Position numbers and translations under genes: made by a program
Shown: positions 4,416-20,860 of the stretch, one piece after another
Layout of the letters: each line of letters starts with the position of its first letter
How positions within the stretch are numbered: the first letter of the stretch is position 1
Notes under the pieces: model-generated
Database searches by the model: none
The model's input: only the letters and a program-made list of their open reading frames with translations
Told to the model about the DNA's origin: nothing
DNA from: Planctomycetaceae bacterium
Lineage (GTDB): Bacteria; Planctomycetota; Phycisphaerae; Sedimentisphaerales; Anaerohalosphaeraceae
Length of the DNA stretch: 64,000 nt
Assembly (NCBI GenBank): GCA_021372945.1
Contig: JAJFTK010000117.1
Span: forward strand, 23,217 to 87,216
Direction of reading: 5' to 3'

Positions 4416-4466
4416 AAAGCGGCAGAGATGCCGTTCAATATTCATCATAATGCCCGGGAGAACAGA

Positions 4467-6959
4467 ATGAAACGACATGAATGCACTCTCAAGCACTTAA
4501 TCTGCTGGATGGTCGCGGTCTCATCCTTCTGCATGGCCATGACGGAAGAGCAGGGCTGGAAGGTCATGCCCGAGATCCTTAGCCGAATCCAGGCGCCGGT
4601 ATTTCCGGACAAGGACTTCGCGGTCACGCAGTATGGCGCCAAGGGAAACGGCGACGTTGACTGCACAGAGGCATTTCGAAAAGCGATTGCGGCATGCAGC
4701 GAGGCCGGCGGGGGGCAGGTGGTTGTCCCGGAAGGGACCTTTGTCGTTGGGGCGATCCACCTGAAGAGCAATGTGAATCTGCACCTTGAAAAGGGCGCGA
4801 TAATCAGTTTCTTTACCTCGCCGGAGGATTACCTGCCGATGGTTTACACGCGGTTTGAAGGAACCGAGTGCATGAACTACTCGCCGCTTGTTTATGCCGA
4901 TGCGCAGGAGAATATCGCCATCACCGGAAGCGGGACGTTGGACGGCAATGGCGGCATCACCAACTGGTGGCGCTGGAAGTGGACGCAAAAAGCGGATGTG
5001 ACGGCTTTGACAAAGCAGGCAGAAGAGCAAGTGCCGGTCGAACAGAGAATCTACGGCGACGGACATAAGCTGCGGCCCAGCATGATCCAGCCGTACCGCT
5101 GCAAGAATATCCTGATCGAGGGGGTGACCATCAAGAACAGCCCCATGTGGCACATTCACCCGGTGCTGAGCCAGAATATTACGGTACGCAACGTAACCAT
5201 TGTCGGGCACGGACCGAACAACGATGGATGCAACCCCGAGTCGAGCAGGGATATTCTCATTGAGAAATGTTTCTTCGATACGGGCGATGACTGCATCGCA
5301 ATCAAATCAGGGCGAAATGCTGACGGCAGGCGCGTGAACGTAGCCAGCGAGAACATTATCGTCCGCGGCTGCACGATGAAGGACGGGCACGGCGGCGTTG
5401 TGATAGGCAGCGAGGTCTCGGGCAGCGTGCGCAATGTTTTTGCTGAAGACTGCGTGATGGACAGCCCGAACCTCGACCGCGGTCTGCGGATCAAGACGAA
5501 CAGCGTGCGCGGCGGCGTGATCGAGAATATCTTCATGCGGAATGTGATGATGCCGCAGGTACGGCAGGCGGCCCTGCAAATCGATTACTATTACCAGGAA
5601 GGCGATGGCGGACCGTTTCAGCCGACCGTGCGCAATGTTTTCATGACCAACGTGCAATGCAAGAAGAGCGAGTATCCGTGGCATATCCGCGGGTACGCCC
5701 ATAATCCGGCGCAAAATGTCGTTCTAAGGGGATGCACGTTCGAGAATACGCTAAAGGATGGTATTGCCGAAGGGGTCGAGGGATTCCAGGTGATCCCGGC
5801 GGTTGAGACCGGCACGGTCGCTGTTCAATGGCCCGAGATGACTGCCTATTCGGTGATGAAACGATGCCCCGATATCTGGAGCCTGGACTTTGGCAGCAAA
5901 CCGAAATGGAGTTATACGTATGGCGTTGTTCTAAAGGCCATGTGGCAGGTGTGGGAAAAGAACCATGACCCTGCGATCCTGGCTTACATCGAATGTTACT
6001 ATGACACCATGATCAATGAAGAAGGGCAGATCATTGGCTACAATGTGAAAGATTATAATCTTGACAATATCAACGCGGGCAAGGTCCTCTTCGAACTTTA
6101 CGCGCTGACGAATAAAGACAAATACAGCAAGGCCGCCGGTATTCTGCGGGATCAGATGAAAGATCAGCCGCGTACAAGCCCCGGCGGTTTTTGGCACAAG
6201 CAGCGCTACCCGCACCAGATGTGGCTGGATGGGATCTACATGGCAACACCGTTCCTGGCCCAGTATGCAATCGTTTATGATGAGCCCGCTTTATTTGATG
6301 AGGCCGCCAAACAGATCATCTTAATGAACAAGTATGCCCGTGATGAAAAGACAGGCTTGCTGTACCACGCATGGGATGAATCCAGGACGCAAAAGTGGGC
6401 AGATCCCAGAACCGGCGTATCGCCCAATTTTTGGGGACGAGCCATGGGCTGGTATTCGATGGCTCTTGTCGATACGCTCGATTATCTTCCCAGGGAGCAT
6501 CCGCAGCGGGCCGCAGTGATCGAAATACTGAACGACTTGATGGAAGCCGTGGTTCAGTACCAGGACCCGAACAGCGGGTTGTGGTATCAGGTGGTCGATA
6601 AGGCAGGCAGTGAAGGCAATTACCTGGAATCCTCATGTTCAGGCATGTTCGTCTATGCGATGCTTAAATCCATTCGCAATGATTACATTCCGGAGAGCTT
6701 CATGGATGCTGCCGAAAAGGGGTACCAGGGGATTCTGAAGCAGTTCATTGAAGTGTCGCCGGATCAGCAGGTACACGTGCTGAAAGGCTGCTCGGTGGCC
6801 GGGCTTGGAGGCAACCCCTACAGGGACGGTTCTTACCAGTATTACATCGGCGAACCGGTGCGAACGGATGACCCAAAGGCCGTCGGACCCTTCATTTTTG
6901 CCTCACTTGAGCACGAGAAGGTTAATGTTGCCGAACCGGTCCTGGCTTCTGATCATTAA
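4467..6959 (+). CDS. Secreted fusion: GH28 polygalacturonase-like + GH105 unsaturated rhamnogalacturonyl hydrolase-like
   Basis: 830 residues from ATG 4467, chosen because GGGAG at 4456-4460 is well placed and a signal peptide (MKRHEC...CMAM) follows; an upstream in-frame ATG at 4428 has no such site. The N-terminal half is a GH28 beta-helix with all hallmarks: NNDGCNPES, DTGDDCIAIKSG (catalytic Asp pair), GHGGVVIGSE (His) and RIKTN. The C-terminal half (about residue 460 on) is an (alpha/alpha)6 GH105 domain: DYNLDNINAG, RYPHQMWLDG, a WGRAMGW motif and SSCSGMF. GH28 would cut galacturonan or rhamnogalacturonan and GH105 would remove the unsaturated uronyl residue left by lyases, so the polypeptide couples hydrolase and post-lyase steps. 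Confidence 0.9.
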   Translation: MKRHECTLKHLICWMVAVSSFCMAMTEEQGWKVMPEILSRIQAPVFPDKDFAVTQYGAKGNGDVDCTEAFRKAIAACSEAGGGQVVVPEGTFVVGAIHLKSNVNLHLEKGAIISFFTSPEDYLPMVYTRFEGTECMNYSPLVYADAQENIAITGSGTLDGNGGITNWWRWKWTQKADVTALTKQAEEQVPVEQRIYGDGHKLRPSMIQPYRCKNILIEGVTIKNSPMWHIHPVLSQNITVRNVTIVGHGPNNDGCNPESSRDILIEKCFFDTGDDCIAIKSGRNADGRRVNVASENIIVRGCTMKDGHGGVVIGSEVSGSVRNVFAEDCVMDSPNLDRGLRIKTNSVRGGVIENIFMRNVMMPQVRQAALQIDYYYQEGDGGPFQPTVRNVFMTNVQCKKSEYPWHIRGYAHNPAQNVVLRGCTFENTLKDGIAEGVEGFQVIPAVETGTVAVQWPEMTAYSVMKRCPDIWSLDFGSKPKWSYTYGVVLKAMWQVWEKNHDPAILAYIECYYDTMINEEGQIIGYNVKDYNLDNINAGKVLFELYALTNKDKYSKAAGILRDQMKDQPRTSPGGFWHKQRYPHQMWLDGIYMATPFLAQYAIVYDEPALFDEAAKQIILMNKYARDEKTGLLYHAWDESRTQKWADPRTGVSPNFWGRAMGWYSMALVDTLDYLPREHPQRAAVIEILNDLMEAVVQYQDPNSGLWYQVVDKAGSEGNYLESSCSGMFVYAMLKSIRNDYIPESFMDAAEKGYQGILKQFIEVSPDQQVHVLKGCSVAGLGGNPYRDGSYQYYIGEPVRTDDPKAVGPFIFASLEHEKVNVAEPVLASDH

Positions 6960-6980: not shown

Positions 6981-8639
6981 ATGAAACCTGCGGGTCACTT
7001 TGTGTTGATCGGGTTTGTATCAGCGATGATTGTTTTGGGGTTTGCGTCTGTTTTGTTCGCCGAGAGCATTCAGTTTAAGGACGTGCCGTTCGAGATGGCG
7101 GCGATCAACGTGCCGCAGTTTCCGGACGCGAGTTTCTCAATTTCGAAATTCGGAGCGATCGGGGACGGCCATACAAAGAATACCGAGCCGTTTCGCCGGG
7201 CCATCGAGGCCTGTGCGCAAGCGGGCGGCGGAACGGTGGTCGTCGAGCCGGGAATGTGGCTGACCGGACCGATCGAATTAAAAAGCAACCTCAACCTGTA
7301 TTTGGAAGAGGGGGCGGTCATCCTGTTCAGCACCGAGCTTGCGGATTATCCCTTGCAAGACAAGACTTTTGAAGGTGTTCCGTCGGTTCGCCGCAAGTCG
7401 CCGATCAGCGGATATGACGTGGAGAATATCGCGATCACGGGCGCGGGGATCATTGATGGCAGCGGCCAGGCATGGCGGCCCGTAAAGAAGGAAAAACTCA
7501 CGGAGAAGCAATGGAAGGAGTTGGTTAAGTCCGGCGGAGTGGTGCAGCCCGACGGCAAGATCTGGTGGCCGTCCAAGGAAGCGATGGAGGGCGAAAAGAC
7601 CGCCGCCGCGCTGCGGCAGAAGAAAGCAGGAGTTTCCGAATACGCGGCCGCGGGCGAATTTTTGCGGCCGGTGATGGTATCGCTGGTGAAGTGCCGAAAC
7701 GTCTTGCTTGATGGCCCGACGTTCCAGAACTCGCCTGCCTGGAACCTGCATCCGCTGCTTTGTGAGAATCTGATCATCCGCAATGTGACGGTTAGAAATC
7801 CGTGGTGGAGCCAGAACGGCGATGGACTTGACCTGGAATCGTGCCGGAACGCCGTTATCTATCAGTGCAATTTCGATGTGGGCGATGACGCGATGTGCAT
7901 GAAGTCCGGCAAGGATGAATATGGCCGAAAACGCGGCAGACCGACCGAGAATGCCGTAATTCGCGATTGCGTTGTTTATCACGGGCACGGCGGCTTTGTA
8001 GTCGGCAGCGAGATGTCCGGCGGCGTGCGAAACATTGACGTTCGCAATTGCGTGTTTTTGGGAACCGACGTGGGACTGCGGTTCAAGAGCACGCGGGGGC
8101 GCGGCGGTGTGGTCGAGAACATCTACATCCAGGATATCCGGATGAAGGATATACCGACGGATGCGATACTGTTCGATTTGTTCTATTCAGCAAAGTCCCC
8201 CGGGCCGGAGCAAAGTCTTGATGTTCCGCCAGCGCCTGTAACGGAGGAGACGCCGCAGTTTCGGAATATACAAATGAAGAATATCGTTTGCACTATGGCT
8301 GAAAACGCGATCTTCATGCAGGGCCTGCCGGAGATGCCCGTGCAGAAGATCGCGTTCGAGAACGTGGTCATCTCGGCCAAAAACGGGATCACGATGATCG
8401 ATGCGGCTGGGATCACTTTCAAGAATGTCAGAGTCGAGCCCATGAGCGGGCCGGTTTTGGGGCTTTACAACAGCCGCAATATCACGTTTGAGGGCCTGGA
8501 ACTGAAGCCTTCAGGCAAGATCATTCTTGCGGGTGACAAGACGGCCAATATCCTGTTGAAGGGGCTGGATCAGGCGGCAGTAAGCAGCAAGATCGAATAC
8601 ATCAAGGACGCCAAGCCGGAGGCCGTACGTTGGCAGTAA
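6981..8639 (+). CDS. Secreted GH28-family glycoside hydrolase (polygalacturonase-like)
   Basis: 552 residues, 21 bases after the preceding gene, with AAGGAG at 6967-6972 as ribosome site. A signal peptide covers about residues 1-28 (cleavage near LFAES). The beta-helix core has NGDGLDLESC, DVGDDAMCMKSGKD with the catalytic Asp residues, GHGGFVVGSEMSGG with the His, and RFKSTRG. An insertion at about residues 165-225 rich in Lys/Glu is not part of the minimal GH28 fold and may shape the substrate cleft. Family activities include endo- and exo-polygalacturonase, rhamnogalacturonase and exo-acting RG-II enzymes; the exact bond cannot be set. The last codons overlap the TTG start of the next gene, so the two are translationally coupled. 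Confidence 0.88.
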   Translation: MKPAGHFVLIGFVSAMIVLGFASVLFAESIQFKDVPFEMAAINVPQFPDASFSISKFGAIGDGHTKNTEPFRRAIEACAQAGGGTVVVEPGMWLTGPIELKSNLNLYLEEGAVILFSTELADYPLQDKTFEGVPSVRRKSPISGYDVENIAITGAGIIDGSGQAWRPVKKEKLTEKQWKELVKSGGVVQPDGKIWWPSKEAMEGEKTAAALRQKKAGVSEYAAAGEFLRPVMVSLVKCRNVLLDGPTFQNSPAWNLHPLLCENLIIRNVTVRNPWWSQNGDGLDLESCRNAVIYQCNFDVGDDAMCMKSGKDEYGRKRGRPTENAVIRDCVVYHGHGGFVVGSEMSGGVRNIDVRNCVFLGTDVGLRFKSTRGRGGVVENIYIQDIRMKDIPTDAILFDLFYSAKSPGPEQSLDVPPAPVTEETPQFRNIQMKNIVCTMAENAIFMQGLPEMPVQKIAFENVVISAKNGITMIDAAGITFKNVRVEPMSGPVLGLYNSRNITFEGLELKPSGKIILAGDKTANILLKGLDQAAVSSKIEYIKDAKPEAVRWQ

Positions 8640-11600
8640 GCCTAAAAGAGACTGCATTGATAGTGGCTCTATGGGGGAGTGTCTGCGCCGCGTATGACCC
8701 GCCGGAACGGATCATGGTGGTGAGGCCGACCTTCGAAGGGCAGACCGAAAGACCACTGCGCTATCAGCCGCAGAATCGAGATTTTGTGATTCGTAACGGC
8801 AAGGAGGTTTTTAATCGCCCGCTTTATGGGGGCAACACCGCCTTTCGTATCGACGCGGGAGATATGCCGGAGTTTTCATTGTATCTGCCGGGGCAGGTGG
8901 GCAAGGTTCAGTTTGGGATTGAGACCATTCAGGGATTTTTGCTGCTGCACAAGGCAAAGGATGTAACTGCCAGGTATAGGCCCGGGAGCATGGTCTATGA
9001 GATTCGCGATCCTCTATTGGGCAGCGCTGCACTGAATTTGTCGGTGGCGCGCATGTATGACGCGGAAGGGTTCATCGCACGTGCTGAACTGCAAAACGGC
9101 GGTGACGAAGCGAAACTGGTGATGGTTTACGGCGGATGCGGCGGGAAGAAAGGAAAGCGGGGAGGCGATATCGGCTGCGAGAGTCAACCCGTGAGTGAGT
9201 TCTTCCAGTTCCGGCCGGAGAATTGCAGCGGCAATGTATTCGAGATCAATGCAAATACGTTCATACTCAGCAGCAAGACGGCTACGATGGCAGGCGTGTT
9301 GAGCAGTGGAGCGGCGCTTGCGGTCGCGGATGGTTCCAGGTGGGACAATATCAAAGCATTAACGGACTCCCCGAATGCCAGGGCGGAATATCCTGTACTG
9401 ATGGCATCTGTGCCCATGCGGTCAAATGAGCCTGTTTACGCCGTTATTCAGCGTGCCGGCGGGAGCGTTCAATTGCCCGCATCTGAGCAATTGGACGCGA
9501 TGTGGTCGCAAACGGAACAGCGCCGAACGGCAGTGGCCGAACGTGTCACGGTTGATACGCCGGACCCGTTTATCGATGCAGCAGCCGCGGCTTTGTGCGT
9601 TGCTGCTGACGCGATATGGGATGAGCCGCAGGGGTCGGTGATGCATGGGGCGGTCGCGTGGCGATCGAAATACCTCGGCTGGCGGGGGCCTTATGCCAAT
9701 GACGCGGTGGGGCGGCACGACCGCTCCAAGCGGCACTTGGTTTACTGGGCGGCCCAGCAGAACACCAAGCCGTTTGATCCGAATCTACTCGGGCCCGATC
9801 CTGCATCAAATCTGTCGCGGAGCCATCCGGCCAAACAGACCAGCGGCGATATTGGCGGCAAGCACTATGATATGAACCTGGTCTACATGGATGCACTGAT
9901 AAGGCACCTGTTGTGGACAGGCGATTTGAAGCTTGCCGGCCAATTGTGGCCGGTGATCGAGCGGCACATGGATTGGGAACGCAGACTCTTCCGGCGAACG
10001 TTCGGGCCGGAACAGTTGCCCCTTTACGAGGCGTATGCCGCCATCTGGGCCAGCGATGACCTGGAATATTCCGGCGGGGGGGTGACCCACGCATCGGCTT
10101 ACAATTATTACCATAATCTGATGCTGGCACGACTGGCGGAATTGCTGGGCAAAGATGGGGCGGCCTATCAGAAAGAGGCCGACTTGATTCGCAACGGGAT
10201 GCAGACACATTTGTGGCTGGCCGACCGCGGCTGGTATGGCGAATGGAAGGATCTGCGGGGTGCCCAGCAGGTGCATCCGAGCGCGGCGTTGTGGACGTTT
10301 TATCATACGATCGATTCCCAGGCAGCTAGCCCCGAAGAGGCCTGGCAGATGAGCCGGTTTGTCGATACGCAGATCGCGCATATTCCGGTGCACGGGGGCG
10401 GCATTCCGAGAGGGAAATACTACACACTGCCAACGACGAACTGGATGCCTTATACGTGGTCAACCAACAATGTGGTCATGGCGGAAGTTGCGCATACTTC
10501 GCTGGCGTACTGGCAGTGCGGACGGCCGGATAAAGCTTATGAATTGTTCAAGGGCTGCATTTTGGACAGCATGTTCATGGGCGCCTGTCCGGGCAACGCA
10601 GGAATGACGACATATTTTGATATGGCGCGCGGCGAGGCGCAGCGCGATTTCGGGGATGCCGTGGGAACATGCTGGCGCGCCATGGTCGAGGGACTTTTCG
10701 GTATTCGGCCGGACCTGCTGAACGGCGTATTGGAAGTGCGCCCAGGCTTTCCGGGCGAATGGGATTATGCAAGTATTAAACACCCGGACTTTTCTTTTGC
10801 TTTCAAACGAGACGGGCAAACTGAGACCTATCAAATCGAATCGCGTTTTGCAAAGCCAGTCAGTATTGCTTTAAGTATTCCCGCATTGTCCTCAAGGATC
10901 GGCAGCGTTACAGTGAATGGCAAGCCGACGAGATGGGCCGCGATTGAGGCGGTTGGCAAGCCCTTGATCCGGATCCAGGCGGAACCGGCAGCGCATCACA
11001 AGATAGTCGTCGAGTGGCAGGGTTCGCCTATTCGCCGGATCGCTGTGCCGGAGGTGGTCAACAGCGGCGGCGAGTTGAAGATCGATGTTAAGACTGCAAG
11101 TATCGAAGCTGTAACGGACCCGCAGAAGGCCCTGCAGAATGTTACGACGAAACCTGGATCCATTCAAGGCAAAGTGAACGGCTTGGCAGGGCACCGCACA
11201 GTGTTCGCGACCCTAAAGCAGGATCAAATGCGGTGGAGCCAGCCGCTGACGTTCGAGGTGCGGCCTTCTTACGAGGTCGTTCCTGCACGTGCGCAAGCGG
11301 CGGATTCGATCGCGTTTCGATTACGCAACAATACATCCGACATGCTGAACAATGAAGTAACCGTCACGTGCGGAAACTACGAGATGAAATGCGTCTTGCG
11401 AGCGGATGCGTTTGCGGACTCGGAGGAGATGGTTCTGCGGGCGGTCGAATTCAAGCTGCTGCCGGGGTCAAACGCGGTAACGATCCGTTCCAAACAGGCG
11501 ATCATCGCCGAAGAGATCGTGACCAACTGGAACATCAAGGCTCCGGACAATACGAATTGGAGTGCAGTCGAACTGCGGCCGTTCTTTAATGACAGCGTGA

Positions 11601-12271
11601 CGCAGATATTCCGCAATTCGTATATTTCGCCGCGATCGCCTTATTGTTCGCTGGCGATCCCTAAACAGGGGATCGGAAGCTGGTGCAATTTTGAGAAGAC
11701 TTTTGACGTGGACGACAGCGGCTTGCGGCAGGCCGCGAGCGAACATGGCGGCAAGTACGAGCTGGCCAATGGTGTCGTTTTTATAACACCTGCAGAGCGC
11801 GAAGCTGCCAATACCATGTTTGTATCGCAATGGGATAATTACCCACGGGAGAAGACGATTGAACTGTGCGGCAAGGCTTGCCATATCTATCTGCTCATGG
11901 CCGGATCGACCAATTCGATGCAGAGCCGGTTTGATAACGGCGAAGTCATCGTAACATACGCGGACGGCGAAACCGAAAGGCTTGCGCTGGAGAACCCAAC
12001 CACATGGTGGCCGATCGACCAGGATTATTTTTGTGACGATTACGGGTTTAAGCGGCCCGAGGCGATCCCGCCGCGCGTTCATCTGAAAACCGGCAAGGCC
12101 GTCATCGCCAATGCGGCCGCGTTTAGGGGCAAAGGCGGTGCGATCGCCGGCGGGGCGGCTTCGGTGCTGGATCTGCCTTTGAAACCGGACAAGGAACTTC
12201 AGTGCGTCACGGTGCGGGCGATTGCCAATGAGGTTGTGATCGGCCTGATGAGTGTGACACTGGTAAGATAA
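8630..12271 (+). CDS. Large secreted DUF4450-type protein with (alpha/alpha)6 glycosidase-like core
   Basis: 1213 residues. The start is TTG at 8630, inside the end of the GH28 gene, supported by GGAGG at 8618-8622 seven bases upstream and by a signal peptide directly after it (LIVALWGSVCAA). The N-terminal beta domain (residues about 25-240) carries the RNGKEVFNRPLYGGNTAFR pattern I associate with DUF4450. Residues about 310-720 look like an alpha/alpha toroid of GH15/GH78/GH95 style (HYDMNLVYMDALIRHLLWTGD, WMPYTWSTNN, a DAVGTCWRAMVEG segment). Beta-rich C-terminal domains follow. It probably removes a side chain from rhamnogalacturonan or pectin, which is inference from fold and neighbours. 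The linkage and the acidic catalytic residues are not identified. Confidence 0.7.
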   Translation: MAVSLKETALIVALWGSVCAAYDPPERIMVVRPTFEGQTERPLRYQPQNRDFVIRNGKEVFNRPLYGGNTAFRIDAGDMPEFSLYLPGQVGKVQFGIETIQGFLLLHKAKDVTARYRPGSMVYEIRDPLLGSAALNLSVARMYDAEGFIARAELQNGGDEAKLVMVYGGCGGKKGKRGGDIGCESQPVSEFFQFRPENCSGNVFEINANTFILSSKTATMAGVLSSGAALAVADGSRWDNIKALTDSPNARAEYPVLMASVPMRSNEPVYAVIQRAGGSVQLPASEQLDAMWSQTEQRRTAVAERVTVDTPDPFIDAAAAALCVAADAIWDEPQGSVMHGAVAWRSKYLGWRGPYANDAVGRHDRSKRHLVYWAAQQNTKPFDPNLLGPDPASNLSRSHPAKQTSGDIGGKHYDMNLVYMDALIRHLLWTGDLKLAGQLWPVIERHMDWERRLFRRTFGPEQLPLYEAYAAIWASDDLEYSGGGVTHASAYNYYHNLMLARLAELLGKDGAAYQKEADLIRNGMQTHLWLADRGWYGEWKDLRGAQQVHPSAALWTFYHTIDSQAASPEEAWQMSRFVDTQIAHIPVHGGGIPRGKYYTLPTTNWMPYTWSTNNVVMAEVAHTSLAYWQCGRPDKAYELFKGCILDSMFMGACPGNAGMTTYFDMARGEAQRDFGDAVGTCWRAMVEGLFGIRPDLLNGVLEVRPGFPGEWDYASIKHPDFSFAFKRDGQTETYQIESRFAKPVSIALSIPALSSRIGSVTVNGKPTRWAAIEAVGKPLIRIQAEPAAHHKIVVEWQGSPIRRIAVPEVVNSGGELKIDVKTASIEAVTDPQKALQNVTTKPGSIQGKVNGLAGHRTVFATLKQDQMRWSQPLTFEVRPSYEVVPARAQAADSIAFRLRNNTSDMLNNEVTVTCGNYEMKCVLRADAFADSEEMVLRAVEFKLLPGSNAVTIRSKQAIIAEEIVTNWNIKAPDNTNWSAVELRPFFNDSVTQIFRNSYISPRSPYCSLAIPKQGIGSWCNFEKTFDVDDSGLRQAASEHGGKYELANGVVFITPAEREAANTMFVSQWDNYPREKTIELCGKACHIYLLMAGSTNSMQSRFDNGEVIVTYADGETERLALENPTTWWPIDQDYFCDDYGFKRPEAIPPRVHLKTGKAVIANAAAFRGKGGAIAGGAASVLDLPLKPDKELQCVTVRAIANEVVIGLMSVTLVR

Positions 12272-12290: not shown

Positions 12291-14000
12291 ATGCTTGAAT
12301 TAAAGAGAGTCAAGGGAATGGGGCGTTTATGGCTATTCATCGTGGTTTGTGCATGCGGCATGCTGTCCTATGCGCGTGCGCCATGGAATTATTACCTGAA
12401 TAAGCCGGACGACTGGTTCAAGAGCGACAAGGGCAAGCAGATCCTGGAGAATATCCTGACGTGGCAGGATGACAACGGCGTGTGGCCCAAGAACGAGGAT
12501 ACGGACATCATGGCGTTTACGGCCGACCGCAAGGAACTGCGCGGCACATTCGATAACGAAGCGACGACGGGCGAGATGAGGATGCTGGCACGCGGCTACA
12601 CGGTCCTGGGCGATGAGCGGTATAAGACTGCGTTCCTCAAGGGTCTGGACCTTATCCTGAAGGCTCAATATCCCAACGGCGGCTGGCCGCAGTATTATCC
12701 ATTACGCAAAGGATATTACACGCGCATCACCTTCAATGATCAGTGCATGGTCCGCCTCATGAATATGATGGATGAAGTCGCCAAATCAGATACGTATTCG
12801 TTTGTTGACGCTAAACGACGCGCGGACGCGAAAGCGGCCTTTGACAAAGGCGTGGACTGCGTTTTGAAATGCCAGATACGGGTCAACGGAAAACTGAAGG
12901 TGTGGTGCGCGCAGCACGACGAGGTCGATTTCAGTCCTCGGCCGGCACGCTCGTACGAGCTGGCGTCGCTCAGCGGCGGCGAGAGCGCGGGCATCCTGCG
13001 TTTGCTGATGAGCCTGGATAATCCTTCGCCGCAGGTGGTGCAGGCCATCCAGGCGGGCGTCGCATGGTATAAGCAAAGCGAGATCCACGGATTAGCCATT
13101 CGTTGGGTGGACGGGAAACTAACGGCTGTACCGGACCCGAACGGCAAACCGCTTTGGGGACGTTTTTGCGAGATCGAAACGGATCGCGCGTTTTTCTGCG
13201 ACCGCGACGGCATACCGAAATATGACTATAATCTGATCGACCAGGAACGCAGTACGGGTTATGCCTGGTATGGGCGATGGGGAGATGACGTGTACAAAGA
13301 TTATGAAAAATGGCAGCGGCGCTGGGGGCATTTGCTGGTTTCGCCAGGCGCAAAGGTGCTAATGATCATTGGCGACTCGACCGTTTGCGAATACCCGGAA
13401 AGCGACCGGCGGGCCGGTTGGGGACAGTTTATTCAGGGTTATTTCACGGACGACGTAAAGGTCCTGAATCACGCCAAGAGCGGCCGCAGCACGAAGACTT
13501 TCCTTAACCAGGGATTGTGGACAAAGGCGCTCGCCACCAAGCCCGCCTGGGTCCTGATCCAGTTCGGGCACAACGATTCGCACGACCTGAGCAAGCCGGA
13601 AGCCACTAACGCGGCGACGGATTTTGCCGATAATCTCAGAAAATACATCGCCGATAGCCGCGCCGCCGGCGCCGAACCGATCCTCATTACGCCGATGTAC
13701 CGCCGGAAATTCGAGGCCAATGGCACGCTTGAGGAAAACCTTAAGCCCTATGCCGAAGCGATGAAAAAAGTTGCTGTCGAACTGAAGGTTCCCATTGTCG
13801 ATCTGCATACCGCCAGCGGCGAATTGTATCTTAAACTGGGCCCGGAAAAGACGGCGGAATTGGCCAACGCGCCCGAGGATCGCACGCATTTCAATCGCAA
13901 AGGCGCTGAGATGATGGCCGAACTCGTGATGCAGCAGCTTCCCGGCGCTGTGCCTTCATTGAAGGCGAACTTGAAGAAAGCCTCCGATAAGAGTATTTGA
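12291..14000 (+). CDS. Secreted fusion: PL10 pectate lyase + SGNH rhamnogalacturonan acetylesterase-like (CE12)
   Basis: 569 residues, with AAGGAAG just upstream of ATG 12291 and a signal peptide ending near SYARA. Residues about 25-350 are a PL10 pectate lyase: WQDDNGVWPKN, NGGWPQYYP, RITFNDQCMVRLMN and the segment with CAQHDEV and ARSYELASLSGGES; this (alpha/alpha)-fold family cleaves polygalacturonate by Ca-dependent beta-elimination. Residues about 355-560 are an SGNH/GDSL hydrolase with GDSTVCEY (Ser), the Gly block SGRS, QFGHND (Asn) and the closing D-x-x-H as DRTHFN, matching rhamnogalacturonan acetylesterases. The protein thus links deacetylation to lyase cleavage and supplies substrate for the GH105 domain upstream. 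It is the last gene of the pectin cluster. Confidence 0.9.
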   Translation: MLELKRVKGMGRLWLFIVVCACGMLSYARAPWNYYLNKPDDWFKSDKGKQILENILTWQDDNGVWPKNEDTDIMAFTADRKELRGTFDNEATTGEMRMLARGYTVLGDERYKTAFLKGLDLILKAQYPNGGWPQYYPLRKGYYTRITFNDQCMVRLMNMMDEVAKSDTYSFVDAKRRADAKAAFDKGVDCVLKCQIRVNGKLKVWCAQHDEVDFSPRPARSYELASLSGGESAGILRLLMSLDNPSPQVVQAIQAGVAWYKQSEIHGLAIRWVDGKLTAVPDPNGKPLWGRFCEIETDRAFFCDRDGIPKYDYNLIDQERSTGYAWYGRWGDDVYKDYEKWQRRWGHLLVSPGAKVLMIIGDSTVCEYPESDRRAGWGQFIQGYFTDDVKVLNHAKSGRSTKTFLNQGLWTKALATKPAWVLIQFGHNDSHDLSKPEATNAATDFADNLRKYIADSRAAGAEPILITPMYRRKFEANGTLEENLKPYAEAMKKVAVELKVPIVDLHTASGELYLKLGPEKTAELANAPEDRTHFNRKGAEMMAELVMQQLPGAVPSLKANLKKASDKSI

Positions 14001-14222: not shown

Positions 14223-15926
14223 CTATTTTTCGCCGACGAGGACTTCAGCGATGTTGAAGGCATGATCCTTGATCCTGCGATAGGCTGTCAGCATATCCGT
14301 GTATGTGAGACTCATGATGGGGTTAACGATCCCATCGCTGACGCGTTGAAGATGGTTGCCGCGGCATTCCTTCATCAAGGTCGTGACGGCCAGTCCCTTG
14401 GTCTGCATTTCACTAAAGTACTCGGGCGAGCTGTCTTCACGCTCGAGGGCCTCATTGATCAGGCCCAGGTACTCGTCCACTTTATCATGCAGCCGGTTTA
14501 TATCCTCCAGGCCTTTTGGACTGAATCTCTGATTATTCTCCTGCATCTTCAGCCGGAGTTTCATTAACCCCTGGATATAGTCGCTGATGGATTCGAGTTC
14601 GTCGGCGATGCGGATCTGGCCATTGGCGTTCTGCATCAGGTCATGCGGGATGTTGCCGGTCAGGATTTCGCCAATGAATTCCACGATCTCTTTCTGAATA
14701 ACATCCAGATCGTTTTCTTTCTGGAAGATGTCTTCTGCGATCTTGCGGTTCGGCTCGGCATTGGTCATGAACGGCTTGAAATTACGCAGCATATTCCGGC
14801 AAATGTGGCTGGTTCGGACCAGTTCTTTATAAGATTGCTGGATGCCGATCGCGGGCGCATCAAACAGCCGCATATCCAAGAACGTCAGCTTGGGTTTTTC
14901 GCGTTTGGCTTTCTCGGGCAATAGCCAAATCAGGAACCGCGAGTAAGGGCCGACCCACGGAAGAAACACGAGGACGTTAGCAATGTTGAACCATGAGTGC
15001 GTGGCGGCGATCGCTCGCTGGGCGTGCGGAAACGTCTGTTCGCCATTGATCATTACAGGCACATCGGGGGCATCGCCGCCGAGAAACGTTTTCACGAACC
15101 AGATAATAAACGGCGTATAAACAAAGAACAATGGCGTGATCCAGAGCACGCCAATGGTATTGAACAACATGTGAGCATAGGCCGATCGTTTGGCGTTGGT
15201 GGTGGTTCCAAACGAGGCAAAAAAGGCCGTGACCGTCGTGCCGATATTCTCGCCCAGGACCAGGGCCGCGGCGGTGGGAAAGCCAATGAGACCGACGTTG
15301 GCCAGGGCCATGGTCATGCCGATCGTGGCGGCCGACGCCTGCACGATTGCGGTCACGAGGGCGCCCACCAGGACGCACTTGATGACCCCGAAATAATTGT
15401 CTGCTGTGAAGCGCTGAAAAGCAGCTTCGAATTCAGGCATTCCGCGAATGGGAGCAAGCCCTTTGGTCATGAGTTCCATGCCAAAGAATATCATGCCGAT
15501 ACCCATAATGATCATGGCCGTAAAGCGGACCCGATCGCCTTTCGTGAAAAGATAAAAGAAGGCCGCCATGCCCAGAATGGGCAAGCCATATTTGGTCAGA
15601 CTGTACGCCATAATCCAGGCGGTCAGCGTGGTGCCGATATTTGCGCCAAAGATCACGGGAATAGCCTGTTTGAGCGTCATCAGGCCGGCGTTGACCATGC
15701 TGACCAGCATCACGGTGGTGGCGGAACTGGACTGAATAGTCGCCGTGACGCCGGCGCCGACGCCGACCCCCATGAGACGGTTATCGGTCACCGCGCCGAT
15801 CATTCTGCGGAGACGGTCGCCCGAAATGGCCTGCAAACCCTCGGACATGTTCTTCATGCCGAAAAGAAAAATGCCAAGCCCCCCTACTACGCAGGAGAAC
15901 ATCTCAAGGCAAATACCATACGTCAT
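14223..15926 (-). CDS. Na+/phosphate cotransporter (NptA/PNaS type) with C-terminal PhoU-like domain
   Basis: 567 residues from ATG 15926; upstream codons in the frame are Arg/Trp-rich and unlikely to be coding. The membrane half has the duplicated PNaS motif: GVTATIQSSSATTVM and, in the second repeat, GALVTAIVQASAATIG, each with the QSS/QAS signature for Na and Pi binding, plus LGENIGTT and FGANIGTT. Residues about 370-560 form a PhoU-like helical bundle (ELESISDYIQGLMKLR, CRGNHLQRV). It moves phosphate with sodium across the inner membrane, and the PhoU domain probably gates it. It lies downstream of phoU on the same strand, so low- and high-affinity phosphate systems are grouped. Confidence 0.9.
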   Translation of the reverse strand: MTYGICLEMFSCVVGGLGIFLFGMKNMSEGLQAISGDRLRRMIGAVTDNRLMGVGVGAGVTATIQSSSATTVMLVSMVNAGLMTLKQAIPVIFGANIGTTLTAWIMAYSLTKYGLPILGMAAFFYLFTKGDRVRFTAMIIMGIGMIFFGMELMTKGLAPIRGMPEFEAAFQRFTADNYFGVIKCVLVGALVTAIVQASAATIGMTMALANVGLIGFPTAAALVLGENIGTTVTAFFASFGTTTNAKRSAYAHMLFNTIGVLWITPLFFVYTPFIIWFVKTFLGGDAPDVPVMINGEQTFPHAQRAIAATHSWFNIANVLVFLPWVGPYSRFLIWLLPEKAKREKPKLTFLDMRLFDAPAIGIQQSYKELVRTSHICRNMLRNFKPFMTNAEPNRKIAEDIFQKENDLDVIQKEIVEFIGEILTGNIPHDLMQNANGQIRIADELESISDYIQGLMKLRLKMQENNQRFSPKGLEDINRLHDKVDEYLGLINEALEREDSSPEYFSEMQTKGLAVTTLMKECRGNHLQRVSDGIVNPIMSLTYTDMLTAYRRIKDHAFNIAEVLVGEK

Positions 15927-16083
15927 AATCCCGCAATCCCTTTGACGAACCCATACTCCATGTCGATCCGGCTGCAATCGAAAAAAGCCCCTGCCTGGAT
16001 CGAAAAACAGGGACCAGAGAAGTCTTGCAGACCCCTTTGAAAATGTCAAGAATATTCCGTTGCGAAAGCACGCTTTCGGTGGG

Positions 16084-16749
16084 TTAATACCGTGAGATAT
16101 TCAGGTCCTTGGGGTTTGAACCGCTTACAAAGTAAACGATCCGTTCACAGATATTGGTTACGCGATCGGCGATTCGCTCCAGATTATGGGCGGCCCATAT
16201 CACGTACGTGGCGCGCGTGATGACCCGCGGGTTTTCGATCATTTTATTCAACAGTTCCTGATAGATCTTCTCGTGCAATTCGTCCACGCGATCGTCCATT
16301 TTGCAGATCTCCTCGGCGGCCTTTGCGTCACGCTCAACAAAGGCTTTCAGGCATCGCCGCAGCATATCGGCGGCGATTTGGGCCATTTGAGGAATGTCCT
16401 CGAATGATTTGACCGGCTCTTCCGTCCCCAAAAGCAGCACAATTTTGGCAATGCCCTCCGCGTGGTCGCCCATGCGTTCCAGATCGGTAATCATGTTGAG
16501 GATCGCGATCACCTCGCGCAAATCCGAGGCAACCGGCTGCTGCAGTGCGATCAGGTTAATGCACTCATCTTCCAGTTTCCATCGCCGCTCGTTGATCAAT
16601 TCATCGTCTTTGATGATCTTTTCGGCGCATTGCAGGTCGCGATGCTTCAAGGCCTCCACCGAGGAAAGGATAGCTTCTTCCACGGCCTTGCCCATCGAGA
16701 TCAGGTCCAATTCCATCGCGTCGATAGTTTTGCGAAAGCTCGTTGTCAT
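16084..16749 (-). CDS. phoU: PhoU phosphate-signalling regulator
   Basis: 221 residues, the usual PhoU size. Two related three-helix repeats are visible, each with an acidic E/D-x-x-x-D metal-binding motif (MITDLERMGDHAEGI and AHNLERIADRVTNIC). PhoU links the state of the Pst transporter to the PhoR-type sensor kinase and restrains phosphate uptake. It begins 14 bases after the second pstB. No PhoB/PhoR genes are in the window. Confidence 0.95.
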   Translation of the reverse strand: MTTSFRKTIDAMELDLISMGKAVEEAILSSVEALKHRDLQCAEKIIKDDELINERRWKLEDECINLIALQQPVASDLREVIAILNMITDLERMGDHAEGIAKIVLLLGTEEPVKSFEDIPQMAQIAADMLRRCLKAFVERDAKAAEEICKMDDRVDELHEKIYQELLNKMIENPRVITRATYVIWAAHNLERIADRVTNICERIVYFVSGSNPKDLNISRY

Positions 16750-16763
16750 TTTTCGTTCCCCGT

Positions 16764-17528
16764 TTAACCAAAGTTTCCGCTGATATAGTTATCGGTCATT
16801 TTCTGACGCGGGTTAGTAAAAATATGCGCGGTCGGACCGAATTCGATCAATTCGCCCAGATAAAGAAAGCCGGTATAGTCGGAGGCCCTTGCGGCCTGCT
16901 GCATATTGTGCGTTACGATCACCAGCGTATATTGTTCCCTGAGGACCTTAAGCAGTTCCTCGATCCGCATGGTCGCGATCGGATCCAGTGCTGAGCAAGG
17001 TTCATCGAAGAGAATAATCGCAGGCGTCAATAGAATGACACGGGCAATGCATAACCGCTGCTGCTGTTCGAGCGACAGGGTGCGCGCATTCTTACGAAGC
17101 TTGTCTTTCAAGACATCCCAGAGGCCAACGTCTTCAAGGGATTTGTGGACGAGATCCATTGTTTGGCTGCGCGAACGCATCTGCCGGTGAATGCGCATTC
17201 CAAACAGCAGGTTGTCCAGGATCGACTGATCGAAAACATTCGGTCGTTGAAAGACCATCCCCACTTTTTGGCGCAACGTCACGACATCCATCGACGGGTC
17301 CAGGATGTTTTGCCCGTCAATCAGGATCCGCCCTTCCGTGCGAACATTTTCGATCAGGTCGTTCATGCGGTTAATCGTGCGAAGCAGCGTTGATTTTCCG
17401 CAGCCGGAGGGCCCGATCAGAGCGGTCACATTGTTTTGCGGGATATGCAGCTGTATGGATTTCAGCGCGTGAAAATCCCCATAAAACAGATTCAAATCGT
17501 CAATGCTGATCTTGGTCGTGAATTCCAT
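16764..17528 (-). CDS. pstB: Phosphate ABC transporter ATPase PstB, second copy (degenerate LSGGQ signature)
   Basis: 254 residues. Walker A is GPSGCGKST (K45), the Q-loop is MVFQRP (Q94), Walker B is IILFDEP (D175, E176) and the switch His is VTHN (H207): all canonical. The ABC signature is LSLEQ (residues 151-155) instead of LSGGQ; the DNA reads CTG TCG CTC GAA CAG with no ambiguity. The C-terminal half otherwise matches Escherichia coli PstB closely (QQQRLCIAR, YLGELIEFG). It lies 3 bases after the first pstB. The loss in this copy is complementary to the losses in the first copy, so the two are likely to work as a heterodimer with one competent ATP site (inference). Confidence 0.93.
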   Translation of the reverse strand: MEFTTKISIDDLNLFYGDFHALKSIQLHIPQNNVTALIGPSGCGKSTLLRTINRMNDLIENVRTEGRILIDGQNILDPSMDVVTLRQKVGMVFQRPNVFDQSILDNLLFGMRIHRQMRSRSQTMDLVHKSLEDVGLWDVLKDKLRKNARTLSLEQQQRLCIARVILLTPAIILFDEPCSALDPIATMRIEELLKVLREQYTLVIVTHNMQQAARASDYTGFLYLGELIEFGPTAHIFTNPRQKMTDNYISGNFG

Positions 17529-17531
17529 TGG

Positions 17532-18290
17532 TTATCCGAATTTTCCGGTCAGGTAATCATCTGTTCGCTTATCGGACGGGTTGGTATATAGAACCTGCGT
17601 GTTATCGACTTCAACCAACTCTCCCATCAGGAAGAAAGCGGTGCGATGGCTGACCCTTGCCGCCTGCTTGGTATTATTGGTCACCAGGATCTGCGTATAT
17701 TGCTGCGAAAGCTGCTGCATGGCATCCTCGACGCGGGCCGTCGAGATCGGGTCCAGGCCGGAGCAGGGCTCATCATAGAGGATCACATCCGGCTCAACGG
17801 CCAGCGTCCGCGCGATGCAGAGCCGCTGCTGCTGTCCGCCGGAAAGCTTTGTCGCAGAGGTTTGCAGACGATCTTTGACTTCATCCCACAAATATGCTTT
17901 TTGCAGAGATTCCATAACCAGCGCGTCGATACGCTGCCCGTCTTTGACCCCGTGCACCCTGGGGCCATAGGCCACGTTTTCATAGATCGTGATCGGCAAT
18001 ACCTGGGGCATAGCGAAAATGATCCCGATCTTGCGGCGGAGAACCGAGTCTGGGATCTGCGTGGCGTCTTGGCCTTCGAAGCGGATGACGCCCTGCTGAC
18101 GGTAATTGATGTTGAGCGAATTAAGGCGGTTCAACGCCCGAAGAAACGTCGTTTTGCCGCTGTTGGCGGGGCCAATGATCCCCAGGATCTCATTGCGATA
18201 GATCTCCAGATTGATATTGCGCAACACCTGCAATTCATCATAAAAGCAGTTCAGGTCAAGCGTTTTGATGATGGCGTCTTGTTCTACCAC
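17532..18290 (-). CDS. pstB: Phosphate ABC transporter ATPase PstB, first copy (Q-loop and switch His lost)
   Basis: 252 residues. Walker A GPANSGKT (K46), signature LSGGQ (149-153) and Walker B VILYDEP (D173, E174) are intact. The Q-loop, normally VFQKP, reads IFAMP with Ala at 93. The switch region, normally VTHN, reads VTNN with Asn at 205; the DNA there is ACC AAT AAT. Such changes usually abolish or slow ATP hydrolysis at the site built on this subunit. It overlaps pstA by 7 bases. The family role is powering phosphate import with PstC/PstA. Confidence 0.93.
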   Translation of the reverse strand: MVEQDAIIKTLDLNCFYDELQVLRNINLEIYRNEILGIIGPANSGKTTFLRALNRLNSLNINYRQQGVIRFEGQDATQIPDSVLRRKIGIIFAMPQVLPITIYENVAYGPRVHGVKDGQRIDALVMESLQKAYLWDEVKDRLQTSATKLSGGQQQRLCIARTLAVEPDVILYDEPCSGLDPISTARVEDAMQQLSQQYTQILVTNNTKQAARVSHRTAFFLMGELVEVDNTQVLYTNPSDKRTDDYLTGKFG

Positions 18291-19132
18291 TGTTTTTTCT
18301 TTCTAAAATGCGCACGCAGGACAATGCTGACCACGTTCATCAGACAGACCAGGGCAATCAGTACCAGGCCGGTTCCAAAACTGAATTTCTCGGGCACGTT
18401 GGGCACCTGCGTCGAGATGACGTAAAGATGATACGGCAGCGCCATGACCTGGTCGAACACAGAACGCGGCAGATGCGGCAGATAAAAGGCCGCGACGGTA
18501 AAGAGAATGGGTGCGGTTTCGCCGGCGGCCCGGCTGAGACTGAGCACCGTGCCGGTCAGGATGCCGGGAATGGCATAAGGCAGAACGCAATAACGGATCG
18601 TTTGCCAGCGCGTCGCGCCGAGCGAAAGACTGATCTCGCGATAGGACATCGGCACGGCCTCAAGCGCTTCTTTCGTGGAGGTAATGATTACCGGCAGGCT
18701 CATGATGGCCAGCGTAAGGGACCCTGCCAGGATCGAGGCGCCAAAATGCAGGAACACAACAAATACGGTAAATCCGAACAAACCATAAACGATCGAAGGA
18801 ATTCCGGACAGATTCACGACGGACAGCTTGATCATGCGGGTGAATAGATTGTCACGGGCATATTCGACCAGGTAGATGGCTGACAAGATGCCCAGTGGCA
18901 GCGAAAAAGCCATCGTTCCGATCACCAGCAGGATCGTGCCGACCAGAGCGGGAAAGATGCCGCCTTCCTTCATGCCATTTCGCGGGTTCTGCGTGAGAAA
19001 CTCCCAACTCATGGCTCCCCAGCCGCGGCTAATGACATAGTAGAGGATAAGCAGAATGGGCAAAATGACCAGCAGCGTGACAAACCCGAGAACGGTAAAG
19101 GCGATCTTTTCGCGCAACTTGGCGCCGTTCAT
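18284..19132 (-). CDS. pstA: Phosphate ABC transporter permease PstA
   Basis: 282 residues from ATG 19132, which overlaps the pstC stop in an ATGA and is preceded by AGGAGGACACGC. About six membrane helices; the coupling-helix EAA-type loop is EALEAVPMSYREISLSLGATRWQ. An upstream extension of the frame is Arg/His-rich and is the shadow of pstC. PstA and PstC form the inner-membrane channel for phosphate. Confidence 0.93.
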   Translation of the reverse strand: MNGAKLREKIAFTVLGFVTLLVILPILLILYYVISRGWGAMSWEFLTQNPRNGMKEGGIFPALVGTILLVIGTMAFSLPLGILSAIYLVEYARDNLFTRMIKLSVVNLSGIPSIVYGLFGFTVFVVFLHFGASILAGSLTLAIMSLPVIITSTKEALEAVPMSYREISLSLGATRWQTIRYCVLPYAIPGILTGTVLSLSRAAGETAPILFTVAAFYLPHLPRSVFDQVMALPYHLYVISTQVPNVPEKFSFGTGLVLIALVCLMNVVSIVLRAHFRKKKQW

Positions 19133-19998
19133 CTGCGTGTCCTCCTGAGAAAGCGCTCGGCGGTGAAATTCAGAATAAAGGTAATGATAAACAGAACCAG
19201 ACCGACGGCAAACAAGGCGTAATAATGATCCGAGCCGCTGACCGCTTCGCCCATCTCGCCGGCAATCGTGGCGGTGAGTGTTCGCAGCGGCTGCAGAAGC
19301 GATGTGGGAATCACCGGGGCATTGCCCGTAACCATCATGACGACCATGGTCTCGCCGATGACCCGGCCGATGCCGAGCATGATAGCGGCCATGATGCCCG
19401 ACGATGCCGCCGGAAGCACGATCCGCCAAAGGGCCTGCCACTTGGTGGCGCCCAAACCGTAAGCGGCTTCTTTATACATGCGCGGCACGCTCGCCAGGGC
19501 ATCCTCGGAAATGGTGATAATGGTCGGCAGGGCCATGAATGCCAGCAGGAATACGCCCGTCAGCCCGCACATTCCGGTGCGGAGATGAAATAGATTCTTG
19601 ACAAAAGGTCCAAGCCATACGATGCCGATGAAGCCGAGCACTACGCTGGGAATGGACGCGAGCACTTCGATCAGCGATTTCAGGATCGTTTTGAGAAAGC
19701 CGGGAGCGATCTCAGCGATATAGAGGGCGGCGGCCACGCCGATCGGCACACAGATGGCGATGGCTCCCGCGGTCACCATGAATGAGCCCATGACCAAAGG
19801 AACGATGCCGAACGAGGGAGGTTCTGAAATAGGCAGCCATTTTGTTCCCGCGATAAAGTCAAAGAACGGATACACACGAAACAAAGAAAGCGAATCCTTA
19901 AGCAGAAACAAAAAGATCAGGAAAACAAATGCGATCAGCAGGAATCCGCTGAGGCGAATTGCCGCTTCGATAACCGTTTCCGTCCACTTTCTATTCAC
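19129..19998 (-). CDS. pstC: Phosphate ABC transporter permease PstC
   Basis: 289 residues with an N-terminal membrane helix (LLIAFVFLIFLFLLK), then a typical binding-protein-dependent permease core. The cytoplasmic loop is EDALASVPRMYKEAAYGLGATKWQ. It overlaps pstS by 8 bases and pstA by 4, a tightly coupled operon. Confidence 0.93.
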   Translation of the reverse strand: MNRKWTETVIEAAIRLSGFLLIAFVFLIFLFLLKDSLSLFRVYPFFDFIAGTKWLPISEPPSFGIVPLVMGSFMVTAGAIAICVPIGVAAALYIAEIAPGFLKTILKSLIEVLASIPSVVLGFIGIVWLGPFVKNLFHLRTGMCGLTGVFLLAFMALPTIITISEDALASVPRMYKEAAYGLGATKWQALWRIVLPAASSGIMAAIMLGIGRVIGETMVVMMVTGNAPVIPTSLLQPLRTLTATIAGEMGEAVSGSDHYYALFAVGLVLFIITFILNFTAERFLRRTRR

Positions 19999-20860
19999 TT
20001 AAGGCCTCCCGCGGAACAAACCCGGTTTCGGCAAACTGCCGCTGGCCTTCAGGGCTCAGCGTGAAATCGACGAACTGCTTAACAATCCCGACCGGGTCGC
20101 CATTGGTATAAAAATACAGCGGACGCGAGAGCGGATATTGTTTGCTCAGGACATTCTTTATGTCAGGCGCATAAAAATGAACGCCATCGCTGCCGACCTT
20201 TAGCGTTTTGGCGCGGTCGGAGATATACCCCATTCCAAAGTAACCGATGGCGGCTTGATTATTGGCGACTTCCTCAACGATCGTCTGCGAGGAGGTCAGC
20301 AGCAGCGCATCCGGCGAGAATTCGGCGGTGCTGTCGCGTTTGCCTTCGCGGATGACTTCTTCCTTGAAATAGATGTGCGTGCCGGAACTGACTTCCCGTG
20401 ACAAGAGGACGATCGGCAGATCGGGACCTCCGAATTCCTTCCAGTTGCCCGCCTGCCCCGTGAAGATTCGGTTCAGATCCTTCATGGTAAGCTGTTCGAC
20501 GGGGTTTTTCAAATTGACGATCACCGCGATCCCGTCGTAGGCAACAACGATCTCTACGGGATTACCCCCCCGCTTGCGGGCCATTTCGATTTCCTTGGGT
20601 TTCATTTCGCGCGAAGCCGTCGCAATATCGCAAGTCTCATTGATCAACGAGGCGATCCCGACGCCGCTGCCGCCGCCCGTGATTGCGACGAAGATGTCCT
20701 GATACTGCTGCATGAATTTTTCGCTGAGCAACTGGGCGGCGTTGACCATCGTATCCGAGCCCTTGATCTGGATGTATCTGCGGTCGGCGGAGCGTTTGCA
20801 GCCATCAAAAAAATAAAACGTCGCGAGAAAACAAAGAAGATAAAGCGTTCTTTTTTTCAT
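19991..20860 (-). CDS. pstS: Phosphate-binding lipoprotein PstS
   Basis: 289 residues. The signal peptide ends in a lipobox-like YFFDGC, so the protein is probably lipid-anchored at the periplasmic face. The PstS core is clear: IKGSDTMVN (phosphate-binding Ser/Asp), GGGSGVGI, IATASREMK, and the SREVSSGTHIYF segment. It captures phosphate for PstCAB. It is the first gene of the phosphate operon and has its own promoter and a palindrome upstream. Confidence 0.93.
   Translation of the reverse strand: MKKRTLYLLCFLATFYFFDGCKRSADRRYIQIKGSDTMVNAAQLLSEKFMQQYQDIFVAITGGGSGVGIASLINETCDIATASREMKPKEIEMARKRGGNPVEIVVAYDGIAVIVNLKNPVEQLTMKDLNRIFTGQAGNWKEFGGPDLPIVLLSREVSSGTHIYFKEEVIREGKRDSTAEFSPDALLLTSSQTIVEEVANNQAAIGYFGMGYISDRAKTLKVGSDGVHFYAPDIKNVLSKQYPLSRPLYFYTNGDPVGIVKQFVDFTLSPEGQRQFAETGFVPREALSE

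Follow-up and report, generated by a model that had tools for sequence, protein, structure and literature searches.

In ABC transporters, each ATP site combines the Walker A and B motifs, the Q-loop and the switch His of one subunit with the LSGGQ signature of the other. It has long been asked whether importers of the Pst (type I) class need one hydrolysis event per substrate or two, and engineered mixed-site mutants have been the main approach so far.

The PstSCAB importer of E. coli (cryo-EM 9k3x, 9k3s) has a single PstB, modelled as a homodimer in the accessible sections of PMC5775613. Two adjacent pstB genes, PstB1/PstB2, are present in the pst locus of Enterococcus faecalis. According to the available text of the 2025 study describing them, both copies are canonical and no other published study addresses the contributions of tandem pstB paralogs (PMC12096839). 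In Bacillus subtilis, PstBA/PstBB are likewise listed as the NBD pair of Pst.

Degenerate ATP sites have been described in ABC exporters such as TAP1/2, TM287/288, BmrCD, MRP1 and Pdr5, in which one NBD has an altered signature and the other an altered H-loop, both falling into the same composite site. Bacterial importers are not without precedent for such a site. The fused NBDs of the type II importers RbsA and NupO have one degenerate ATP site each, in the account given by the accessible portion of PMC11466899. There, a single polypeptide has lost the Walker A Lys, and in NupO Walker B as well. DppD/DppF, in turn, is an importer with two different NBD genes, both sites of which are treated as catalytic in the part of PMC12136057 at hand.

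Here we describe a Pst operon with two adjacent pstB genes. In contrast to the single PstB of E. coli, and to the Firmicute-type tandem with full ATPase motifs in both copies, these two genes have complementary motif losses. The pair shares with the degenerate-site exporters that the altered signature and the altered H-loop belong to one composite site. Its nearest likeness among them is yeast Pdr5, which has the same Gly-to-Glu signature change (LNVEQ; available text of PMC7756269). Unlike these exporters, however, it belongs to an importer, consists of separate soluble NBD subunits, keeps the catalytic Glu and has lost the Q-loop Gln. Unlike in RbsA and NupO, the Walker A Lys and Walker B are both intact. 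Searches of an open-licence library brought up no description of PstB pairs that are degenerate or complementary, earlier reports elsewhere being possible. As far as these searches reach, a degenerate site is new for Pst and for an NBD pair encoded by two genes.

A Pst operon with two different pstB genes

The window (the whole 64,000-nucleotide stretch of DNA that was analysed) stems from a genome of 3.58 Mb in 146 contigs that is 96% complete. On its minus strand lies an operon with the order pstS-pstC-pstA-pstB1-pstB2-phoU, followed by a Na/Pi symporter gene:

19991..20860, minus strand: pstS, phosphate-binding protein (NCBIfam TIGR02136, 243.6 bits, cut-off 206.6)
19129..19998, minus strand: pstC, permease (NCBIfam TIGR02138, 284.8 bits, cut-off 196.45)
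18284..19132 (about; the start is the first ATG of the translated stretch), minus strand: pstA, permease (NCBIfam TIGR00974, 296.7 bits, cut-off 193.45)
17532..18290, minus strand: pstB1 (copy 1), 252 aa, with a GTG start that overlaps the pstA stop
18012..18014, minus strand: codon of copy 1 Ala93, Q-loop position
17832..17846, minus strand: copy 1 LSGGQ, residues 149-153, the signature predicted to complete the canonical site
17676..17678, minus strand: codon of copy 1 Asn205, switch-His position
16764..17528, minus strand: pstB2 (copy 2), 254 aa, with its ATG three bases past the copy 1 stop
17247..17249, minus strand: codon of copy 2 Gln94, Q-loop
17064..17078, minus strand: copy 2 signature LSLEQ, residues 151-155 (Glu in place of the second LSGGQ Gly)
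16908..16910, minus strand: codon of copy 2 His207, switch His
16084..16749, minus strand: phoU (NCBIfam TIGR02135, 232.7 bits, cut-off 130.25)
14223..16049, minus strand: Na/Pi-cotransporter II-related protein, directly behind phoU (TIGR00704, 223.4 bits, cut-off 210.1)

Neighbouring Pst genes overlap or almost abut, and PstS, PstC, PstA and PhoU each score above their own NCBIfam cut-off, as expected for the operon of a Pst importer. Copy 2 passes the PstB family TIGR00972 (358.6 bits against a curated cut-off of 343.2). Copy 1 scores 320.8 bits and thus stays below this cut-off, although no other family matches it nearly as well as PstB; we refer to it as a PstB-derived subunit.

The Na/Pi-cotransporter-like neighbour is probably a second phosphate route and not a part of the pump. 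Among the best 80 of 445 relatives, many of whose loci end too soon to tell, such a protein was recognised behind the pair in two loci (L031 and L032), indicating that the two phosphate routes share one locus. The phosphate operon of the window also adjoins a plant-polysaccharide locus, with two-domain pectin-degrading enzymes at 12291-14000 (pectic acid lyase and GDSL esterase) and 4428-6959 (GH28 and GH88). A 1,213-aa protein with DUF4450, a domain of unknown function, is encoded at 8630-12271 inside this pectin gene cluster.

Re-reading of the sequence placed both open reading frames where the first-pass annotation had put them (18290-17532 and 17528-16764, minus strand) and bore out its account of their motifs. 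Copy 1 has both Walker motifs (Walker A GPANSGKTT, Walker B VILYDEP) and an LSGGQ signature, with Ala for the Q-loop Gln at position 93 and Asn for the switch His at position 205. It retains the Walker A Lys and the Walker B Asp and catalytic Glu. Its Walker A is unusual too, with GC changed to NS, and its D-loop reads SGLD, not SALD. Copy 2 has Walker A GPSGCGKST, Gln94, Walker B IILFDEP and His207, and its signature is LSLEQ.

The complementary losses are fixed across lineages

The first-pass annotation had proposed to look in related genomes for matched losses of the same residues, against which random losses in either copy would speak. In a first set of 60 genomes, comprising the window's own and 59 relatives, copy-1 orthologs (E < 1e-100) were present in nine, own included, drawn from the genus, the family and the order. 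Each of the nine adjoins a copy 2, one of which is cut by a contig end. The changes from Q to A and from H to N were seen in 9/9 copy 1 sequences, while Gln, His and a signature ending in EQ were seen in 8/8 readable copy 2 sequences.

We then turned to the GTDB species collection, which was scanned with residues 1-140 of copy 1 and yielded at least 80 copy-1 loci, the best 80 of 445 relatives being analysed. The search patterns lay in and before Walker A and the ranking relied on residues 1-140, Q-loop included, and the scan selected for neither the H-loop of copy 1 nor any part of copy 2. In these best 80 of 445 relatives, the switch His of copy 1 is Asn in 80/80, and the Q-loop position is Ala in 79 and Thr in one. 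The second signature Gly of the partner is Glu in all 78 loci that contain copy 2. Among the matches listed, record titles with the pair name Planctomycetota, Omnitrophota, Elusimicrobia, Firestonebacteria, WOR-1, Aminicenantes and Spirochaetales, as well as Zipacnadia (Armatimonadota), Auribacterota and single bins with a Bacteroidota or Actinomycetes label. Almost every one of these titles reads 'MAG' or 'uncultured', and an individual bin may be mislabelled. The sole copy 1 with Thr in place of Ala at the Q-loop position, among the matches listed, comes from a MAG labelled Actinomycetes (L108).

An early tally of distinct ORFs from the first 209 loci, with classes set in part by motif and hence partly circular, comprised 125 copy 1, 119 copy 2 and 65 other sequences. 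The full tally covers 235 loci and 330 distinct ORFs with at least 200 aligned residues each, and assigns classes by identity outside the motifs to chosen seeds (7, 7 and 14). One distant non-PstB ABC protein with LSGGE (L117) was left out. In the copy 1 class (n=140), the Q position is Ala in 139 and Thr in one, the switch His is Asn in 140/140, and the Walker Lys, Asp and Glu are present in 140/140. The signature is LSGGQ in 132 and MSGGQ in 8, and the D-loop is SGLD in 139 and SALD in one. All 132 members of the copy 2 class keep Gln and His and have Glu as the fourth signature residue; their signatures are LSLEQ (89), LTLEQ (19), LSGEQ (5), LSAEQ (4) and rarer forms. In the canonical or other class, Gln, His and Gly at signature position 4 were found in 58/58, seven of which have an LSxGQ-type signature.

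No member of the copy 1 or copy 2 class in the full tally (140 and 132) shows mixed or further motif loss. Every pair read has the matched losses, and random ones were not seen. The complementary motif pattern is neither chance nor an assembly error.

Motifs of the proposed intact composite site are the more strictly conserved ones

Under the standard cross-dimer assignment, all motif defects of the 140 copy 1 and 132 copy 2 sequences fall into one composite site and the other is complete, as in degenerate-site exporters. Replacement of the Walker B Glu, which is frequent but not universal in those exporters, was not found, the Glu being kept in 140/140 copy 1 sequences. As there are only three fixed losses, the chance that all of them come to lie in one composite site is 1/4 by coin-flip, and our argument therefore rests on retention and differential conservation.

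If the two copies form a heterodimer, Walker A of copy 2 and the signature of copy 1 should be strict, and Walker A of copy 1 and the signature of copy 2 relaxed. This is what the weighted column entropies of the full tally reveal for both motif pairs (in bits; copy 1, copy 2 and canonical, in this order). Walker A has 0.32, 0.03 and 0.09, and the signature 0.02, 0.49 and 0.24. Constraint is thus strong on either half of the intact site and weak on either half of the damaged one. The D-loop has 0.01, 0.27 and 0.41, and the whole protein 1.18, 1.15 and 1.22, so that the two copies are equally conserved overall. Walker B of copy 1, in which the Glu is kept, is not relaxed (0.44, 0.58 and 0.66).

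The residues themselves, their fixation across lineages, the co-inheritance of the two genes, the operon context and the stricter conservation of the canonical-site motifs are established. To explain them, we propose that pstB1 and pstB2 very probably encode the non-identical NBD subunits of one PstSCAB importer, working only as an obligate heterodimer in which one ATP site is hydrolytic and the other degenerate. A canonical site could be built by neither homodimer. In the heterodimer, the Walker A and B motifs, Q-loop and His of copy 2 would join the LSGGQ of copy 1 to form a canonical site that hydrolyses ATP. The second composite site would comprise Walker A and B of copy 1, without the Gln and the His, opposite the LSLEQ of copy 2, which places a Glu at the gamma-phosphate position. 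This site may bind nucleotide with poor or absent hydrolysis and act as a fixed clamp or allosteric half-site, and the cost of each phosphate may be about one ATP. The physical heterodimer, its nucleotide occupancy, the ATP stoichiometry and the placement of each NBD under PstA or PstC are parts of this model that we infer.

The first-pass annotation had also arrived at a heterodimer with one canonical and one degenerate site. The matched losses and the motif conservation agree with it, while heterodimerisation and unequal hydrolysis are inferred. Its comparison with TAP-type exporters holds in so far as the defects lie within one composite site; the signature change from Gly to Glu, however, is that of Pdr5, and we set the label aside because the catalytic Glu is kept.

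A variant that shares the heterodimer with our model would have two hydrolytic sites, the second being slower. We consider it the less likely form, although one with a real chance of being correct. The second site may still hydrolyse ATP to some degree, given that copy 1 keeps its Glu and shows no relaxation of Walker B. In line with this, the Walker A Lys and the Walker B Asp and Glu are all present in 140/140 copy 1 sequences, and Asn can stand in for the switch His: transport stays wild-type-like when the H-loop His in site 2 of MRP1 is replaced by Asn or Gln, as described in the accessible part of PMC7756269. The degenerate site may thus not be fully dead. In all pairs read, however, the Q-loop Gln is lost as well and a Glu lies opposite the gamma-phosphate, and Walker A of copy 1 is relaxed relative to that of copy 2 (0.32 versus 0.03 bits).

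Alternatively, the two copies could divide their labour without forming a heterodimer, with copy 2 homodimers carrying out transport and copy 1 being regulatory or accessory. The tandem PstB genes of E. faecalis have non-overlapping roles, PstB1 being accessory and PstB2 required, as stated in the available sections of PMC12096839, and E. coli PstB relays a signal to PhoU and PhoR in the portion of PMC5775613 that covers it. A copy 2 homodimer, however, would have the signature Glu in both of its sites (132/132). Moreover, the copy 1 signature is the most rigid of the three classes (0.02 bits) and is relevant only opposite another NBD. This renders a division of labour improbable.

The pair is inherited as a unit

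For phylogenetic analysis, 36 copy 1, 36 copy 2 and 36 other sequences, less than 80% identical, were combined with the window's two and an outgroup (111 rows). The rows were picked in locus order, mainly up to about L081, and include few LSGEQ or LSAEQ forms. With the motif columns removed, copy 1 forms one clade and copy 2 forms one clade (SH-aLRT 100 and 96; 99 and 97 in a second run). The topology test does not reject a single clade of both copies (p-AU 0.892). Distances among the copy 1 sequences correlate with those among their copy 2 partners (r = 0.84 over 112 pairs), a value reached in 0/999 permutations, and the two copies are inherited together. In the copy 1 tree, the window's order falls into two separated groups, one of them within a mainly Omnitrophota group (support 96), which suggests that the pair was transferred between phyla.

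The gene neighbourhood is similarly stable. Among the best 80 of 445 relatives, copy 2 lies behind copy 1 in 78 loci, phoU lies behind the pair in 66, and the full order pstS-C-A-B1-B2-phoU is present in 54, most of the others being cut by contig ends. Of the 14 loci without phoU in this set, L057 and L105 lack copy 2 in the locus and nine stop within 1 kb of copy 2 or directly at its end. In L063, L080 and L088, phoU was not recognised by single-sequence search despite more than 4 kb after copy 2. In the first 209 loci, copy 2 is immediately downstream of copy 1 in 115/125. The remaining ten copy 1 genes sit at a locus or contig boundary or reflect artefacts of ORF calling, L072 and L057 being the exceptions. 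In L072 (6864-8091), the copies are separated by two ORFs that measure 145 and 246 aa from stop to stop. In L057 (Elusimicrobia), copy 2 and phoU are on another contig than copy 1, and both copies have the complementary motifs.

The pair was found in 29/162 genomes of the window's order and in 7/392 genomes of a sample across its phylum (both at E <= 1e-84, own included). In the phylum of the Omnitrophota record G441, 107/285 genomes matched at E < 1e-93, a threshold set there because a match at 2.4e-92 (G631) proved canonical; 40 of the 107 were read at motif level, and 40/40 are copy 1. In the phylum of the Elusimicrobia record G446, 75/198 genomes matched (E <= 1e-93), nine of which were read.

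In 12/21 genomes surveyed for PstB, the window's included, no other PstB was found besides the pair (E <= 1e-55); 13 of the 21 have no stated completeness. Provided that these 12 genomes are complete, uptake there has to be driven by the pair. Another PstB or a PstB-like protein is present in 9/21. In 14 loci of the best 80 of 445 relatives, the pair is preceded upstream by a canonical PstB, within a Pst operon often cut by the locus edge. The pair can thus be the sole ABC motor for phosphate that was found, and it is also retained next to a canonical one. Such tandem phosphate pumps with the canonical PstB upstream were seen in L032, L035, L036, L038, L043, L064-L066, L070, L072, L076, L079, L082 and L106. 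The canonical neighbours and the further PstB or PstB-like proteins in 9/21 genomes would fit a scenario in which one or both copies are duplicates degenerating beside a canonical Pst, but this is extremely improbable and already contradicted by the absence of mixed or further motif loss in either class, by the 12/21 genomes in which the pair is the only PstB found, and by a mean column conservation like that of canonical PstB (1.18 and 1.15 versus 1.22 bits).

A different PstB-like protein lies behind PstC/PstA in L111-L116 and L158 (genomes G019, G033, G011, G026, G041, G056 and G448). It has the Q-loop context LSQ(T/N/K)P, the signature [ILV]S[IV]GQ and the switch VTHILRQ, and the five sequences of this type included in the tree form their own clade (support 100). 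PstS and PhoU were not recognised in these short loci.

Structure prediction and covariation

Seventeen in-frame copy 1-copy 2 pairs were joined for AlphaFold2. The domains of the joined pair are confidently predicted (pLDDT 90.9), but this confidence does not extend to their relative placement (pTM 0.55). Structure matches over both domains of the joined model are fused DppD and OppD chains, at an rmsd of 10 to 12 Å.

Mutual information between the Walker A region of copy 1 and the signature of copy 2 was not enriched over 129 pairs with kinship uncontrolled, the best rank being 308/26,240. With kinship likewise uncontrolled, one of the highest-ranking combinations links copy 1 residue 147, which immediately precedes LSGGQ, to copy 2 residue 184, which lies past the D-loop. 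No fusions of PstA with copy 1 or of copy 1 with copy 2, from which the geometry could have been read, were recognised in the loci of the best 80 of 445 relatives. Long ORFs considered as fusions were ruled out, being merely open upstream frames.

The coupling helices of both PstA and PstC differ between asymmetric and canonical operons, with kinship as a full confounder. Under the same confounder, PstA position 156 is Thr in 112/118 asymmetric operons versus Arg in 37/56 canonical ones, and position 163 is Glu in 67/118 versus Arg in 37/56. As kinship confounds these comparisons fully, we draw no conclusion on docking from them.

Implications for phosphate import

A broader proposal, whose chances we judge to be evenly balanced, is that the pair defines a class of importers built on an obligate asymmetric NBD heterodimer. 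Here, one site would be hydrolytic and the other permanently non-hydrolytic, with a Glu at the gamma-phosphate, about one ATP would be spent per phosphate, and the dead half-site would serve as a clamp or sensor that is read by PhoU. Each copy would be fixed in its own clade, having probably arisen from a single duplication, and the pair would have moved as a unit between phyla.

Nature seemingly offers an importer that runs stably on one site, and in some of the genomes concerned a canonical PstB upstream can serve as a control. The annotation of tandem pstB genes may mask a functional heterodimer. If our model is true, PstB, the relay to PhoU and PhoR, would be intrinsically asymmetric.
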